A stretch of 28,877 bases of DNA from a virus, in IMG/VR virus record IMGVR_UViG_3300042560_001950, positions 1-28,877 of that record; one strand, written 5' to 3'. Within the stretch, counting starts at the first letter, position 1; each line of letters opens with the position of its first letter. A program made the translations under genes and the position numbers. This document shows positions 2,578 through 28,481 of the stretch, in pieces. The notes beneath the pieces were generated by a model that had not been told where the DNA came from, ran no database searches, and saw nothing but the letters and a program-made list of their open reading frames with translations.

Positions 2578-2792
2578 TGCCGCGCAAGAAAAAAACACCC
2601 ACACACGGCGGCGCTCGCGAGGGCGCTGGCCGTAAGAAGATGGCTAACGCAAAGCGACCCGTGACATTCAAACTCGCGCGTCCGATCGTGGAGTACCTCG
2701 ACACGGTGCCAAGCAAGGTGGCGGCGGTCGAGTCGGCAATCACGGATTCGGCGGGGTATCGGCAGTGGCAGTCCGCCAATGCTCGTCCGTGA
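2577..2792 (+). CDS. Small basic GGAREGAGRKK protein (71 aa)
   Basis: The ATG at 2577 is formed within the stop of the preceding gene. The N-terminus is strongly basic (MPRKKK) and carries the GGAREGAGRKK motif seen in many small phage and plasmid proteins thought to bind nucleic acid. The remainder (VTFKLARPIVEYLDTV) resembles a short ribbon-helix-helix segment, as in arc-type regulators, which is a tentative assignment. The last 53 bp overlap the 3' end of the opposing integrase gene. A partner role with the acidic upstream protein is possible. Confidence 0.7.
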   Translation: MPRKKKTPTHGGAREGAGRKKMANAKRPVTFKLARPIVEYLDTVPSKVAAVESAITDSAGYRQWQSANARP

Positions 2793-3804
2793 CGAGGGCA
2801 TAGCTGCGCATTGCGACGGCGGCGCTGTTGCCGATCCACTGCGACGCGGTGGCGAGTCCATACTGCTCAATCAATTCCGTTTCGCGGGTGGCTCGCATCG
2901 AGTGCCACGGCGCAGGCCATGGCGTCACGCCGGCGATCGCGATCAGATTGAGCAACCGACAGGCCATACCGGAATCGCTGCCGTCGATCAGATCGTCGCA
3001 CAGCGGGACATCGCGCGGATGACGCTCGAGGGCCGCGGCGATCTCGGGGAATAGCGGGATGGTGCGCGTGGTGTTCCGTTTGTGGTCACAGATGGCGATC
3101 CGTTTGCGGTCCCAGTCGATCGCGTCCCAGGTGAGGGATCGCAGCTCGGACGGGACGCGGATTCCACCGAATCGGCTCATAGCGATCGCGACCGCCATCG
3201 AGGGCGTGGCGATCTCGATCAGCTTGGCCGCAACACCGACCGGGACAAAATGCTTCTCACGGACGTTGATCTTGGTCGATAGCTCCCGAGCGGGATTGTC
3301 GGCAATGAGCTTGCGATCCTGGCACCAATGGAAAAACGCGCGCCATCCGGCGGCGATCTTGCCACGGGTCGATTCGCCCACGGTCAGGGATTGATGGCAC
3401 TCGGTGACATCCTCCACAGCGACGCGATCGATGGGTCGCTGGTCAAGTGTTTCTCGCAGCAGTTCGAGGGACCGCTGCCGATCGTTCCAGGTGGCCATCG
3501 CCAACCGCTCGCGCGTCTCGGTGACATAGGCGTCGATAGCGGTCCCAACGGTGTGGGTCGCGCCGAGGATCGCGGAGAGCTTGCGCCGCAGCGATGGCGT
3601 GACCTGGTCCAGCCATCGCACGGTTTGGCGCGGCAGCGGCAGATCGGCGGTTTGTGCGGCGAGGATCTCGTCGACGTGACGCTGGACAGCGACCGCGTCG
3701 GCCTCGGGGATGTCCCCCAACCAAATCGATTTGCGACCGGTGGCCGTGTACGCTCGCAGCCGCCACCCGGTGCGTGACTTGGTCTCACGCGTCAGGGATG
3801 ACAC
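2740..3804 (-). CDS. Tyrosine recombinase/integrase 1 (354 aa)
   Basis: Site-specific recombinase of the phage integrase family. The catalytic residues are visible: Arg216 in GGIRVPSELRSLTW, His301 and Arg304 in WHSMR, Trp323 in WIGNS (where many relatives have His) and the nucleophile Tyr335 in RSYALV. Residues about 80-170 form the SAM-like core-binding domain; the N-terminus resembles an arm-binding domain. The start is a GTG at 3804, overlapping the methylase gene by 13 bp, so it is translated as the last gene of the portal operon, which is unusual for an integrase. It is a distant paralogue of the integrase at 8618-9766, with similar C-termini (YALVTDEHW and YLLVTAEHW). Confidence 0.9.
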   Translation of the reverse strand: MSSLTRETKSRTGWRLRAYTATGRKSIWLGDIPEADAVAVQRHVDEILAAQTADLPLPRQTVRWLDQVTPSLRRKLSAILGATHTVGTAIDAYVTETRERLAMATWNDRQRSLELLRETLDQRPIDRVAVEDVTECHQSLTVGESTRGKIAAGWRAFFHWCQDRKLIADNPARELSTKINVREKHFVPVGVAAKLIEIATPSMAVAIAMSRFGGIRVPSELRSLTWDAIDWDRKRIAICDHKRNTTRTIPLFPEIAAALERHPRDVPLCDDLIDGSDSGMACRLLNLIAIAGVTPWPAPWHSMRATRETELIEQYGLATASQWIGNSAAVAMRSYALVTDEHWRTATADTPPNP

Positions 3805-8617: not shown

Positions 8618-9766
8618 TCATCCCTTTGCGCGCCGTGCGCCGCGCCGTGCGCGAGGCTCGCGCGCCGTGCGCGCGGCTTGCCAGTGCTCAGCGGTGACTA
8701 GCAGGTAATGATCCTTGGCGACCTTGGCGCTGTGGCCGATCCACGCGTCGCAAACGTGGCTGGGGAATCGATCCTCCAGATCGGTTCGGCATGAACGACG
8801 CAGGTTGTGCCACAGGTGTGGCCATGGTTGCAGTTTGGCGTGACGAATGGCGTCCTCAAGCCATCGACGCCATTCTGTCGCAGCAGATGCGCGGCCGCGG
8901 TTGAACACGTAAACCGCTCCGGTTGGTGCCGTTTCTTGCAGAACCCGCAAATGCTCCAATGCGACTGGAAACAATGGTACGACTCGATGCCCCGTTTTGG
9001 TGTTTGCGGCGATCGTCAATCGCTCGGCTGACCAATCGATGTCGGTCCACTTGATCGCGAGCGGCTCGTGCGGGATTCTCAGACCGCACCAACGAGCCAA
9101 CGCAAACAGGGCCCGTCCATCGAGCGAATTAAACGCGTCGAGCACCTGCGACGCCGTTTCCTCGCTGATGTATTGGTATCGGGTCTTGTCCGTCTTGGCG
9201 GAGATTTTGCAATCGGCGAATGGGCTCGAGGCGATTACGCCGGCATCGATGGCGTCCGTAAAAACCATCCTCAACCTGTTCAGGATCTGCCTTGCATGGG
9301 TTGAGGCCGCGCAACTGCACAGGTCGCGCGTAAAATCCTTGGCGTCGGCTACGGTGATTTGGTCCAGTGTGCGGGCGCCAAATCGAGGGCCAACATGGGC
9401 CCATGCGGTTCGCCATCCTCGCCGCGTTCCCTGGCTGTAGTCAGTTCGTTTGCCGACGTACGCATCCCATGCCGTTTGTACCGTCGGCATCGCGCCAGGA
9501 CGGTTCCATTGCTGCAGCAGCCCATGTTTTGCCAATTGATCGAGCAACGGTGATTTATGCATCGCCAGCGTTGCCAACCATGTCGCAACCTCGGCCGTTG
9601 CTGGTTCGCCCACGCGGTTGGTGGCTATAATCGAGTCCAGTTTGCTGGCGATCGTTTGCGCCGTGGCCTTGTTGATTTGGCCCAGGTAGATTTTTGCTCT
9701 CGTTCGAGCTGGCAGAGTGACCGCCACATACCACCCCCCGCGTTTGTGTCGCCAGATGGTGCTCAT
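8618..9766 (-). CDS. int: Tyrosine recombinase/integrase 2 (382 aa)
   Basis: Phage integrase family member. Catalytic residues are Arg230 (CGLRIPHEPLAIKW), His320 and Arg323 (LWHNLRRS), His345 (WIGHS) and Tyr354 (DHYLLVT). An N-terminal arm-type DNA-binding domain (YVAVTLPARTRAKIYLG) precedes the core-binding domain at about 95-185. The start overlaps the excisionase stop (TGATG), so int and xis form one operon, the classical lysogeny arrangement. The Arg/Ala-rich tail is encoded by GCGCCGTGCGC repeats shared with the non-coding side (8466-8490), so the gene's end probably doubles as part of the attachment region. Confidence 0.92.
   Translation of the reverse strand: MSTIWRHKRGGWYVAVTLPARTRAKIYLGQINKATAQTIASKLDSIIATNRVGEPATAEVATWLATLAMHKSPLLDQLAKHGLLQQWNRPGAMPTVQTAWDAYVGKRTDYSQGTRRGWRTAWAHVGPRFGARTLDQITVADAKDFTRDLCSCAASTHARQILNRLRMVFTDAIDAGVIASSPFADCKISAKTDKTRYQYISEETASQVLDAFNSLDGRALFALARWCGLRIPHEPLAIKWTDIDWSAERLTIAANTKTGHRVVPLFPVALEHLRVLQETAPTGAVYVFNRGRASAATEWRRWLEDAIRHAKLQPWPHLWHNLRRSCRTDLEDRFPSHVCDAWIGHSAKVAKDHYLLVTAEHWQAARTAREPRARRGARRAKG
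8630..8654 (+). repeat. Right copy of the GCGCCGTGCGC double repeat
   Basis: Same two-unit arrangement as 8466-8490 with one base changed in the spacer; a third single unit follows at 8662-8672. The copies fall inside the last codons of integrase 2. Pairs of direct repeats on both sides of an inverted-repeat core next to int resemble arm-type sites of an attP. Confidence 0.6.
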
Positions 9767-19509: not shown

Positions 19510-19636
19510 GGGTGGCGTCGGGCTGCGGTTTGTAGGGTTTGTGAGTCTTTGCACGACTCGCAGCGGGCGGAGATCGCAACGCAAATCGGCGCGGTGGTCC
19601 GCGCCGTGGTCCTGTCGGGCGTAGCCCGCAAATAGT

Positions 19637-19724
19637 AGCCGAGATGCGCGAGCATCCGGGTTGAAGCGTGGCAAACGTCGCGTGGTGTCGAGCGGTTCGA
19701 CCCGGGGGCTTTCGCCCCTCGGCT
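19637..19724. repeat. Cloverleaf-forming intergenic repeat, copy 1
   Basis: Outer arms AGCCGAG and CTCGGCT enclose two hairpins (ATGC-GCGA-GCAT and GGGGC-TTTC-GCCCC) and an inner stem from CCGGGTTGA with TCGACCCGG. It abuts the terminase stop codon. The same architecture appears at 21922-22010 and 22805-22892. The hairpin arm ATGC/GCAT replaces CGGC/GCCG of the other copies, a compensating change. Confidence 0.8.
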
Positions 19725-19725
19725 T

Positions 19726-21912
19726 TCATTGCCGCTTCGCGGCTCGCATCTCGGAGAGACTCATCTTGCGCGGACGCGGTTCGGCGACGGCGGTGGCGGA
19801 TGAGCTGCTGACCGGCGAACTGCTCGGGATCGATGCCACGAGATGGGCGTCGGGGTCGGTGGCCACGGATCGGTCGTCGCGTCGCATGGCGACATGCCGT
19901 CGAGCGATCCGACGATCCGATTCGCCCGGGATCCGCACCCCCTGGAGCGATCCGCCGACCGCGGCCAAGAGCAACGCGTCAAGGAGGTGATTGTCCCGGT
20001 TGGGCCGGACCGCCCACTCGTACAGCTCACGGCCCTGGCCGGCCGTCTTGGCCGGGTACTCGCTCGACAGATGGTCCGCGATCATGCGATGACGCAGGGC
20101 GGCGGCCTTGAACAGGAACCAAGCACCTGGCGAATCAGACCCCTCGATCGTCCAGGACTCGTTGAGTTTCGTTTTCCACGTGTTGGTGTCGATCAGCACA
20201 TAACGCGGCGCACGGGTGCCACGCGTCGGTGGCATCCGCCACCCGTAACCGATCCGCTCGCCCCGCTTGGGCCGGTCCAGCGACCATGGCCGTTGCCGTG
20301 CCGTGACGCCTCGACCGTGCGATGGGATGACGTTGGGGTGTGCCTGGCTGAATTGGTAGACGGTTTCGGCTTGGTAGCCCGAGTCGACCACCATCTGCGA
20401 GATTCGCATCATGGCCCCATCGTCGCGAGTGTACTCCACCGCCAGCCGTTCGGCCCGCAATCGGTTGAGCCCCTCGAGCAGTGCCGCCGTGGGCGACCGC
20501 AGCCCGGTCACCCGCAACATCGTCCGTTCGACTTCGGAGAGTGTCAGGTAATCGATCCCCTGATCCGGCCACACACCGTAGTCGAGGACCAGGCCGCGAA
20601 AATCGGACCCGATGCCGCACACGACCCACCACAGCGATGAGCCCTGGACGTCGACCCCAAGGGTAACATGGTCGACCCAGTCCGGGCATTCGCCCCGCTT
20701 GTGCGTGGGCAGCGTCCGCAGGCAGTACTGGTCGGAGGTCAGGCAGACGATACCCTCGACCGGCGCGATCAGCGGGCGGGGGCTGTTTTGATACTCCGCG
20801 TCGAACGTGTCGGGCGAGTCATACCGCAGGTCCATGGCGTGCTGCAATGCCGACAGCTCATGCGGAGCCTTGCGCGCGGGCCATCCGACGATCGAACTCT
20901 CGTCCATCGCCGCGCGGTGCTGGCGGTAGAACTTTGTGGCCTTGGGATGGTCATCGATCCCCTCCGCGATCTCGTCGGCGCGGATTTCGAAATAGTCTTT
21001 CCACAGGTCGGTATTCGTCGGCCATTCGTAAACCAGCTTGCAGCGTTCGCCATGCCACTTGGGCATGAGCGCCCGGTTGAGCATCCGGTCCGCCATGTCC
21101 CCCTCGCGGATCACGGTAACGGCCGAGAATCCCGCGATCCGTTTGCCTGGTCCGGCCAGGCCAAGGATCGCACCGCCGACGACCTTTTCCCGTTTGGCGC
21201 ATTCGGCATCCGAGAGCGCCGAGCTGTCGGTCTGCGGATCGTTGACGATGACAAAATCGGGGCGGAGGGTTTTGCCGTCGGCCAACGTCTTCATCATGCC
21301 GCGGATTCGGCCCATGATTCCGGCAACGCGGATCGTCGCGCCCGATGCTTTGCTGCCGGCGATCGTGGGGAAAATCAGTTCCTTGCGCTTCCACCCGATC
21401 AATGTCCGAGCTCCCTCGGTCGTCTGCGCGTTACCGCGCTGGGTGATTCCCTCGAGGCATCGGATGGGGTAAGCGATCTCGGGAAAATCCTCCAGCAACA
21501 GCGGGTTGGTTTCCCACTCGATCTTGATCGTGTCCAGCGATTCCTCGGCGGCCCCTTCGTCGGCTTCGACCAGGACACCGAATCGACGGTGAGCGTAGGC
21601 CAGGACCCACATCATGGCCCGCAGCAGGATCGTCGTTTTGCCCGATCCGCGCGACATCGCGATCGCCTTGAGCCCCCCCTCGATGGCTCGCTGCTCGATG
21701 TCCTTGAGAATCCGCAGATGGTCGTCCGAGAACGGCAGCGGGAAGGACTCGGGGAAGTAGGTGAGGAGGAATTTCTTGAGGTCCCGTTCACAGGCCGCGC
21801 GGCGTTTCGCGTTTACGATTTTGGGGATCGGGCCGATGTCGCGAGCTTCGGTCGATTGCTCGGAGGACTTGGCCGCCTGGCGGTTGCGGTGTTTGGTGTA
21901 GGCGTCGGTCAT
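19726..21912 (-). CDS. Terminase large subunit, GpA type (728 aa)
   Basis: DNA-packaging motor ATPase and nuclease. The start at 21912 (MTDAYTKHRNRQ) is preferred to 21963, because the extra codons would come from repeat copy 2. Visible motifs are Walker A in AMSRGSGKTTILL (near residue 85), Walker B-type DFVIVNDPQ, and the RNase H-like nuclease with VTLGVDVQGSSLWW, VVDSGYQAETVY and DNHLLDALLLAA. It is long but within range for GpA relatives. The last 60 residues are variable Ser/Pro/Arg-rich. No small terminase subunit is recognised nearby; the two genes upstream are candidates only by position. Confidence 0.93.
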   Translation of the reverse strand: MTDAYTKHRNRQAAKSSEQSTEARDIGPIPKIVNAKRRAACERDLKKFLLTYFPESFPLPFSDDHLRILKDIEQRAIEGGLKAIAMSRGSGKTTILLRAMMWVLAYAHRRFGVLVEADEGAAEESLDTIKIEWETNPLLLEDFPEIAYPIRCLEGITQRGNAQTTEGARTLIGWKRKELIFPTIAGSKASGATIRVAGIMGRIRGMMKTLADGKTLRPDFVIVNDPQTDSSALSDAECAKREKVVGGAILGLAGPGKRIAGFSAVTVIREGDMADRMLNRALMPKWHGERCKLVYEWPTNTDLWKDYFEIRADEIAEGIDDHPKATKFYRQHRAAMDESSIVGWPARKAPHELSALQHAMDLRYDSPDTFDAEYQNSPRPLIAPVEGIVCLTSDQYCLRTLPTHKRGECPDWVDHVTLGVDVQGSSLWWVVCGIGSDFRGLVLDYGVWPDQGIDYLTLSEVERTMLRVTGLRSPTAALLEGLNRLRAERLAVEYTRDDGAMMRISQMVVDSGYQAETVYQFSQAHPNVIPSHGRGVTARQRPWSLDRPKRGERIGYGWRMPPTRGTRAPRYVLIDTNTWKTKLNESWTIEGSDSPGAWFLFKAAALRHRMIADHLSSEYPAKTAGQGRELYEWAVRPNRDNHLLDALLLAAVGGSLQGVRIPGESDRRIARRHVAMRRDDRSVATDPDAHLVASIPSSSPVSSSSATAVAEPRPRKMSLSEMRAAKRQ

Positions 21913-21921
21913 GGAATGAGA

Positions 21922-22010
21922 AGCCGAGCGGCGCGAGCCGCCGGGTTGAGGCGTGGCAAACATGGCGGGGGCGCGAGCGGTTCAGACCCGGGGGCTTGCG
22001 CCCCTCGGCT
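21922..22010. repeat. Cloverleaf-forming intergenic repeat, copy 2
   Basis: Same outer arms AGCCGAG/CTCGGCT, hairpin CGGC-GCGA-GCCG, inner CCGGGT stem, and hairpin GGGGC-TTGC-GCCCC. It fills the gap between the terminase start (21912) and the stop of the upstream mini-gene (22012-22014), leaving little room for a ribosome-binding site for terminase. Confidence 0.85.
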
Positions 22011-22011
22011 A

Positions 22012-22218
22012 CTATTGGGAGCGTTGCGGGCGTAGCCGCACGATGCCCGATCGTGGTGCGCAGTCGCACGTCGGGTAGTACCACGTGATCTGCTCCCGCG
22101 TGGATGAGGCTCGGTAGCGAGCGTCGCAATGCGCGCAGCGTGGGGCCCGGTCAGCGGGTTGGCGCTGGTAGCGACCGAACGATTTCGACGAGTGGGGTTT
22201 GATGTGGGTGGGGATCAT
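22012..22218 (-). CDS. Zinc-ribbon mini-protein (68 aa)
   Basis: The ATG at 22218 forms an ATGA overlap with the preceding gene. The second half contains CAHCDARYRAS and CDCAP, four Cys suited to one zinc site, inside a basic protein. The stop TAG abuts repeat copy 2. It is co-transcribed with terminase, so a packaging or DNA-binding role is possible. No family is recognised. Confidence 0.65.
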   Translation of the reverse strand: MIPTHIKPHSSKSFGRYQRQPADRAPRCAHCDARYRASSTREQITWYYPTCDCAPRSGIVRLRPQRSQ

Positions 22219-22652
22219 TCCGCATCCTCCAACGAATAGCCATCGAACAGTTTTGAGCTGGGCAACGCCTGGTCGGGCGTCGCGTGTTGCGACTGGATCA
22301 GATACTCGTTGAGCGTCAGTTCCGGCGTGATCCAGAGGTAGCCCGGTTGTTTTGAACAGGGCCGCAGATTGCGGAACCATTCCCGGGCGTTCTTGGGGAC
22401 AGGCAGCCACATGCGCAGCCACTGCGGCGAGCGGTCGAGGATGTCCACGGTGGCACGATACGCCGCGATCCCGCGCGGGCATTCCCTTGCCCGCCCAGAA
22501 TCGTCGGTCGTGTACAGCGGTGGCGCGAAACAATCCGCGAGCACCAAATCGATCTCCGAATCGCACTCGAGGATCACTCGGATGAGATTCGTTTGCAGGA
22601 CCTGCATCACACGCACGCGCGCGAGCAGGCCGAGCCGGGCCGGGCACTTCAT
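22215..22652 (-). CDS. Protein with staphylococcal-nuclease-like OB fold (145 aa)
   Basis: AAGGAA lies upstream of the ATG at 22652. The order of elements recalls SNase-fold proteins: strand RVILECDSEIDLVLADCFAPP, then GIAAYRATVDILDRS helix, strand LRMWLPVPKN and a final TLNEYLIQSQHA helix. The usual catalytic Arg-Asp-Glu set is not clearly present, so activity is uncertain. Planctomycete-type phages often carry such a protein beside terminase. It could be an inactive SNase-fold DNA-binding protein. Confidence 0.5.
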   Translation of the reverse strand: MKCPARLGLLARVRVMQVLQTNLIRVILECDSEIDLVLADCFAPPLYTTDDSGRARECPRGIAAYRATVDILDRSPQWLRMWLPVPKNAREWFRNLRPCSKQPGYLWITPELTLNEYLIQSQHATPDQALPSSKLFDGYSLEDAE

Positions 22653-22675
22653 CAGGTCGATTCCTTGACCAACAG

Positions 22676-22721
22676 AAAAAACGCCCCCAACGGCTCGGAT
22701 CCTTCCGAGACCGCCGGGGCG
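22676..22721 (-). terminator. Intrinsic terminator/attenuator before the packaging operon
   Basis: On the minus strand, CGCCCC...GGGGGCG forms the base and CTCGGA-AGGA-TCCGAG the top of a long hairpin, followed by a run of six T (22681-22676). It lies about 25 bp before the nuclease-fold gene and directly downstream of a TATAAT promoter, so a transcript from that promoter meets it at once. Confidence 0.75.
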
Positions 22722-22729
22722 ATGTGTTC

Positions 22730-22760
22730 ATTATATGCAACAAAATTGCAGTTAGCGAAC
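22730..22760 (-). promoter_or_regulatory. Promoter for the packaging operon
   Basis: On the minus strand a perfect TATAAT occupies 22735-22730; the -35 (TTCGCT-like, about 18 bp upstream) is weak. Directly upstream, GTAACAAA and TTTGTTAC form an 8-bp inverted repeat (22769-22796) that may bind an activator. The start of transcription would fall at or just before the terminator hairpin. Confidence 0.5.
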
Positions 22761-22804
22761 GGGCGTTTGTAACAAACTCATGGGCGAATTTGTTACGGGA
22801 TGAA

Positions 22805-22892
22805 AGCCGAGCGGCGCGAGCCGCCGGGTTGAGGCGTGGTGGACGTGGCGGGGTGGTGGGCGGTTCAACCCGGGGGCTTGCGCCCCTCGGCT
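22805..22892. repeat. Cloverleaf-forming intergenic repeat, copy 3, with partial tail
   Basis: Arms AGCCGAG/CTCGGCT, hairpin CGGC-GCGA-GCCG, inner stem CCGGGTTGA/TCAACCCGG (perfect here) and hairpin GGGGC-TTGC-GCCCC. A degraded duplicate of its 3' half (GGGGCTTGCGCCC and TACTATGGG) follows at 22898-22925, up to the stop of the next gene. Confidence 0.85.
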
Positions 22893-22918
22893 ACTATGGG
22901 GCTTGCGCCCGTCAAGTA

Positions 22919-23272
22919 CTATGGGCGCCAGATGGCTCGGGCCTCGTCGAGCGTGAGGGTGGGTTTCCCGAGCTTGACGTTGACTAGGTTGTGATACTGC
23001 ACGGTCCACGCGAACCAGTCTTCGGGCGAGTCGTAGCGGGGCGGGCATTGGGCGAGCAGGTCGTTCGCTCCTTGCTGGCACGGGCAGCCGGTCGGAATCA
23101 GCGGCTTCCACTTGGTCTCGAACCATTCGGGGGTGCCGAAGTGTTGGGAGTGCAACGCGGCCCAGGCAGCACGGCCGGCGGCGGCGATTCGCTCGGTATG
23201 CTCGGCAGCGTTCAACTTGTACCTAGATGGCAATACAAAATCACCGTCCGGGCCAATGTAAATAATCGGCAT
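22919..23272 (-). CDS. ERV/ALR-signature small protein (117 aa)
   Basis: The C-terminal half carries WFAWTVQYHNLVNVKLGKP, which matches the His-Asn-x-x-Asn-x-x-Leu-Gly-Lys-Pro signature of Erv1/Alr FAD-binding sulfhydryl oxidases (His94 to Pro104). A CPC pair (Cys63, Cys65) and Cys76 lie before it, where the oxidases have CxxC. A short four-helix protein that could bind FAD and make disulfides is plausible; activity is uncertain because the CxxC is altered. Its neighbour encodes a protein with 17 Cys, a possible substrate. The start is 1 bp from that gene's stop. Confidence 0.55.
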   Translation of the reverse strand: MPIIYIGPDGDFVLPSRYKLNAAEHTERIAAAGRAAWAALHSQHFGTPEWFETKWKPLIPTGCPCQQGANDLLAQCPPRYDSPEDWFAWTVQYHNLVNVKLGKPTLTLDEARAIWRP

Positions 23273-27938: not shown

Positions 27939-28481
27939 CTACTTGATGCTGTTCCCGAACAGGTCTGGGAATTTGGGGGCCTCGGCTGCGAGTGCTGGGG
28001 CCATGAACGGACGGGCTGGGTATTTCGCGGTTCGGCGGCGGGTTTCCGTGCGAATGGTTGCGGTGGGGCGAGCGCGTCGCCGGGGAGCGATTCGCCACGG
28101 AGTTGGTTGGCCAACACTCGGGACGCGTCGCGATTCGAGGATAGCCGCGGATTGTCCGAACTCATGCAACGCCGGGACGGTGGTTTGGGCAGTGATGGCG
28201 TTGGTGGATTGGTTGAGTTGTACCGGCCCGACGATCACGGAATCTTTGCCGCCATCAAACGCGAACAAAATCGTTTTCAGGCTCGGCCCATTCGTCGCGC
28301 GTGCGGTCGGCGGTTGACCAGGTGCGGACGATTGTTTCCGTCTTCTCATGCTCGAGCGTGCGCGCCGGCGAACAAAGGAACCAGCTTTTGATAGTGCACG
28401 GGATCGAGCACGACCCAGAGCCGCGACGATCTTGGGTCGATCGAAAAAGGATTCCTTGATGGCAAACGTGATCCGCATCAT
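27939..28481 (-). CDS. Tail-completion protein, HK97 gp10-like (180 aa)
   Basis: The ATGATG at 28481 overlaps the preceding stop; the frame further upstream is not supported. Features of the family are basic helix ARSRALSKAGSFVRRRAR, a strand with GKDSVIVGPV, ALHEFGQSA, and the closing YPARPFMAPAL. Such proteins join the head or neck to the tail tube. Just before the tape measure is earlier than normal for a long tail, as no tail-tube or chaperone gene lies between them. Confidence 0.7.
   Translation of the reverse strand: MMRITFAIKESFFDRPKIVAALGRARSRALSKAGSFVRRRARSSMRRRKQSSAPGQPPTARATNGPSLKTILFAFDGGKDSVIVGPVQLNQSTNAITAQTTVPALHEFGQSAAILESRRVPSVGQPTPWRIAPRRRARPTATIRTETRRRTAKYPARPFMAPALAAEAPKFPDLFGNSIK

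Follow-up and report, generated by a model that had tools for sequence, protein, structure and literature searches.

The window analyzed here, a 28,877-nt stretch of viral DNA (positions 1 to 28,877 of IMG/VR record IMGVR_UViG_3300042560_001950), carries members of an authentic REPIN set in a phage lineage. We consider it likely that the copies are nonautonomous REPINs that entered this lineage and then moved or recombined, probably by means of a host RAYT acting in trans. Such elements are known as a kind; what appears to be new is their occurrence as populations within phages. Repeats so far described as chromosomal can accordingly be hosted, and possibly also spread, by phages.

Architecture and gene context of the window copies

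A repeat search of the window returned exactly three direct copies of 88 nt each, at 19637-19724, 21922-22010, and 22805-22892, the same three that a preliminary description of the sequence had listed. Each is an inverted REP dimer (REPIN/BIME) built of two inverted 25-nt units, AGCCGAG-N4-GNNA-N4-CCGGGT, and a spacer with complementary ends (GGTTGA/TCAACC). The unit pattern matched 6 times in the window and 0 times in 100 dinucleotide shuffles, and 6/6 units have full 5-bp inner stems. Opposed REPs and a common spacer were also evident in an alignment of 13 copies, with a mean column identity of 74%. In every window copy, only one of the two ends bears a strict GTAG; the other reads AAAG or GAAG. 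Published GTAG REP dimers and REPINs show the same traits, namely, a GTAG-like tag, a stem-loop, inverted pairing of the units, and a conserved spacer (PMC3733652, PMC3116915), which bears out the initial assignment to REP-type repeats. No Rfam model matched the window at the gathering score, and a tRNA search of the window found none.

The single-stranded fold energies of the window copies lie below those of shuffles (z of -2.5 to -5.9 over both strands), with RNA fold energies of ~ -39 to -66 kcal/mol. The four-way junction proposed in the preliminary description is not the lowest-energy fold, which is one long hairpin; as an alternative fold it is nevertheless better supported by covariation. 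Over 13 copies, 96.8% of the pairs in the four-way structure are standard and its covariation score is 0.090 (0/500 shuffles as high); the long hairpin reached 85.6% and a score of 0.004. The signal comes wholly from two neighboring pairs in the downstream hairpin, which are CG/GC in 7 copies and AU/UA in 6. In the window, copy 1 has the ATGC/GCAT hairpin variant and copies 2 and 3 have CGGC/GCCG, so that the base exchange noticed at the outset is real. This compensating change supports the hairpin and favors the four-way form. Covariation survived the addition of copies but is confined to two linked pairs. Instead of a series of separate changes, their joint change may reflect a single event or the existence of two REP subtypes.

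All three copies and the genes beside them lie on the minus strand. Copy 1 (site S1, 19632..19729) directly follows the large terminase gene (GpA-like, 728 aa, 19726..21912), which ends CAA-TGA in the tail of this copy (stop TGA at 19726-19728). Copy 2 (site S2, 21917..22016) lies between the terminase start and a small Cys-rich ORF of 69 aa (22012..22221), which ends CAA-TAG in the copy 2 tail (stop TAG at 22012-22014). Copy 3 (site S3, 22800..22897) adjoins a truncated extra REP on the same strand, GGGGCTTGCGCCCGTCAAGTACTATGGG (22898..22925; repeat family D2, 82% identity), apparently an older element that copy 3 has cut. The gene that precedes this copy (22919-23272) ends CCA-TAG (22919-22921) within the truncated REP. 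The early remark that every copy touches a stop codon therefore holds for 3/3 copies, in the third case by way of the adjoining truncated REP.

The start of the terminase gene is likely the ATG at 21912 and not 21963, as homologues match from residues 14 to 22 on. We rejected the start at 21963 in the ORF list as an artifact of copy 2, given that homologues begin at ~21912. The small protein encoded at 22919-23272 matches Pfam Evr1_Alr (sulfhydryl oxidase; E value, 1.4e-07), which is unusual beside phage packaging genes. A palindrome, GTAACAAATTCGCCCATGAGTTTGTTAC, at 22765-22800 between copy 3 and the next gene is possibly an operator. The window contig also carries two different tyrosine integrase genes (2740-3804 and 8618-9766), both of which match phrog_1.

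As GC-rich hairpins at gene ends, the copies could also act as intrinsic terminators of packaging-gene transcription, a reading that we find very improbable. In none of the copies did the terminator scan detect a hairpin trailed by a T run in the sense of the operon, and its one terminator-like match on a REPIN was on the opposite strand. The region contained 2 matches versus 3.9 in shuffles, and the copies stand between tightly packed genes that run in the same direction.

Filled, empty, half, and nested sites in related phages

Relatives in IMG/VR were collected by window protein, with the terminase yielding 8, the portal 72, and the tape measure 3. Comparison of their junctions revealed five insertion sites in empty, full, half, and nested states. 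All five are intergenic, between a stop and the next start, near ORF 3' ends, and the upstream gene often takes its stop codon from the tail of the repeat. Filled and empty versions of the same site, a comparison that the preliminary description had suggested, were found between close relatives at S1, S2, and S4, with flanks that are ~79 to 92% identical.

Site S1, after the terminase, is filled in the window, L017, and L020 and empty in L015 and L016; L021 perhaps holds a remnant there. Site S2, before the terminase, is filled in the window, L016, and L021 and holds other sequence in L015; in L022 it is empty, and the upstream small ORF ends in a TGA that overlaps the terminase ATG. The S3 element is present in the window and L147 with 99% identity. 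Site S4 is empty in the window, where an uninterrupted TGATG stop/start overlap remains (28478..28481, minus strand). The same site is full in L042 and L119, nested in L040 and L120, and occupied by a half REPIN in L126, L139, and L147 (flanks, 84 to 89%) and by a decayed half in L038. Site S5, which was looked for in the window contig and not found, is full with a 17-nt spacer expansion in L042, L051, L052, and L148 and half in L126 and L147. The S5 junction holds other repeat types in L038, L040, L060, and L057. These filled/empty comparisons are undirected. Polymorphic phage REPINs at defined junctions would offer a natural filled/empty series for studying movement, loss, and effects on neighboring genes.

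At S5 of L038 (9977-10051), the occupying repeat is a different GTAG...CTAC palindromic pair, GTAGCTATCACCGCCAGGTGATGG...CAGCTAC. Beside the S1 REPIN of L017 (2040-2120), a terminator-like inverted repeat, AAAACGGGAGGAAATA...TATTTCCTCCCGTTTT, precedes a tandem duplicate of the 3' end of the terminase gene.

REPs affect mRNA stability, and the copies might instead be vertically inherited phage RNA elements, i.e., selected gene-end hairpins whose movement is old or absent. Their role would be to protect the upstream mRNA from 3' exonucleases or to uncouple the translation of neighboring late genes. The exact placement at gene ends, the near-identity of copies at the same site, the fold energies, and the compensating stem changes are all consistent with this alternative, as is the single orientation of all copies relative to transcription (5/5 sites), although that argument is based on five sites only and has a chance probability of ~0.06. 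We regard such an origin as rather unlikely, given that close relatives have no element at S1, S2, or S4, that different repeat types occupy the S5 junction, and that nested and half copies exist. Moreover, folding is not limited to one strand and is more stable on the one opposite the operon, so the transcribed strand bears no sign of selection.

Copies at the same site are often near-identical (S1, 94 to 99%; S3, 99%; S5, 99 to 100%), which argues for inheritance with loss rather than frequent jumping. S2 copies are only 84 to 87% alike across phages, and similarity across sites is as high as within a site. For example, G002_S2 is 91% like G008_S5 but 86% like win2_S2, win1_S1 is 91% like G008_S4, and win2_S2 is 91% like the S4 copy of L120. 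The S4 element of L120 contains an insert like window copy 2 inside an S4-type element, of which the old right REP remains. At window S3 and L040 S4, a REPIN adjoins a truncated older REP. The cross-site likeness and the nested and adjoining copies show that copies have been inserted or have recombined with one another.

The compared phage sites yielded neither a sequenced excision product nor a target-site rule, and simple recombination of one repeat with another could account for the exchange between sites. Homologous recombination and template switching between repeats, and between coinfecting phages or prophages, may have spread the copies with no transposase involved. The composition of the L120 element (S4-type left part, window-copy-2-like insert, and old right REP) and the otherwise mosaic nature of these phages fit this account. 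Recombination as the whole explanation seems doubtful to us: it leaves unexplained how the first copy arrived at five unrelated junctions and why different REP families occupy the same kind of junction.

Host, transposase, and relation to known REPINs

The preliminary description had suggested looking for an associated RAYT. None was found in the phage records: the RAYT-type Pfam domain Y1_Tnp (PF01797) was absent in 34 different records (0/34), many of them fragments, while control genomes were positive. The window portal protein is 34 to 49% identical to homologues in 19/289 Verrucomicrobiota genomes and at most 30% identical to homologues in 22/299 Pseudomonadota genomes, with homologues in 0/198 Bacteroidota genomes at the threshold used. 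These portal matches point to a PVC bacterium as the probable host and do not single out Planctomycetota.

Across 388 Verrucomicrobiota genomes, the corrected unit pattern revealed no repeat family and gave four isolated matches of the kind expected by chance. A covariance model, R1, returned noise (best E value, 0.027) in the 19 Verrucomicrobiota genomes with portal homologues and no match on two planctomycete plasmids. The sequences inspected among the R1 matches in Verrucomicrobiota were not REPINs of the window family and were rejected. Also discarded was pattern AGCCGAGNNNNGCNNGNNNNCCGGGTTGA, which is one base longer than the unit; its matches are due to chance, and its negative result in 84,980 genomes is no evidence.

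The clover form and excision of REPINs have been described (Bertels and Rainey 2011, PMC3116915). Like those elements, the phage copies comprise two inverted REPs and a conserved spacer in roughly 70 to 100 bp, with clover or long-hairpin folds, loss from sites, and presumed RAYT mobilization in trans. Unlike them, they reside in phage genomes, at few copies per genome, rather than in bacterial chromosomal populations, and their tags are partly degenerate. The bacterial GTAG superfamily, represented in PVC bacteria (for example, R. baltica and O. terrae), is known to supply stop codons and to form inverted dimers and heterodimers (Di Nocera 2013, PMC3733652). The phage copies share with the HH dimers of that superfamily outer GTAG termini (strict at only one end in the window copies), heterodimers with different stems, complementary spacer ends, and a position adjoining an ORF 3' end where the TAG of the tag is the stop, a likeness of described features (PMC3733652). 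The word "phage" is absent in the text of PMC3733652, and a literature search for REPINs in phage genomes found no report, which is not proof of absence.

The E. coli BIME/TnpA-REP system has a comparable GTAG tag, imperfect hairpin, and alternating orientation, but its sequence differs, and GTAG is intact at only one end of the window copies (PMC8266576). The E. coli enzyme needs strict GTAG (PMC8266576), and the window copies may therefore be immobile now.

We suggest that REPINs entered the phage lineage, probably at a time when these phages resided as prophages in a host of the PVC group, and that they then moved or recombined among a handful of stop/start junctions. A host RAYT (HuH Y1 transposase) would bind the single-stranded cloverleaf during replication and cut near the tagged ends, excising or inserting the element. 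Insertions would survive where a stop and a start meet, since the tail AATAGTAG and its variants would provide a stop codon and no gene would be broken. Losses would leave half elements or clean junctions, and insertions into old copies would produce nested elements. Involvement of a transposase, its derivation from the host, the order in which sites were gained or lost, and any influence on gene expression are inferred. The motor of movement is hypothetical, the sampled phage records having yielded no RAYT. If insertions at other places were lethal, the same placement at stop/start junctions would be expected.

Range among viral contigs and other REP families

Among the 2.9 million contigs of IMG/VR, the corrected unit pattern matched 42 stretches, and inverted pairs with perfect stems occurred only in this phage group. 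All other full-stem matches were from this phage group or were single units without the rest of the element (L127, and L163 with wobble pairs). A relaxed pattern added only matches without the full stem in viral contigs. REPIN queries against plasmids and INPHARED phages gave no match, and short queries of other REP families against plasmids gave one weak match or none.

Distant relatives carry other REP families. A second family, GTAGCCGANNTCGNNAGANNTTGG, is present in L103, L105, and others and has the dimer form GTAGCCGA..TCG..AGA..TTGG, and L113 has another REP type, GAGCCGNNGGGCGCTAGCCC. The unit ACCCGANGCGNNAGCGAGGGA occurs in 27 viral stretches, most of which have no detectable relation to the window phage (four proteins tested). 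On IMGVR_UViG_3300017666_000003 (L233-L235), which encodes a terminase, a portal, and a head protease/capsid protein, there are 26 GTAG-tagged units in 42,332 bases versus 0 in ten triplet shuffles; the units were found by a GTAG-anchored pattern, so their GTAG is partly by construction. In this family, the stem covaries at two pairs among distinct unit sequences, and the TAG of GTAG is the stop of an upstream open frame of at least 100 codons in five units. With about one REP unit per 1.6 kb, several of them arranged as inverted heterodimers, this contig has the highest REP density among those analyzed.

More tentatively, PVC phages may maintain REPIN populations of their own (up to 26 units per 42 kb), use the host RAYT, and carry REPINs between hosts, a broader reading that we hold with less than even confidence. 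Phage genomes with REPINs are a possible vehicle for transfer between hosts, and such a vehicle, if real, would open a path of transfer that REPIN theory at present holds to be unlikely.

The other REP types of viral contigs may resemble planctomycete repeats. Tandem arrays of four ACCCGACGCGTAAGCGAGGGA units at ~32- to 33-bp spacing were seen in L188 (1990-2130), L195 (4873-4992), L204 (4530-4649), and L205 (5401-5520), and many other contigs have this unit as a single copy at gene junctions.
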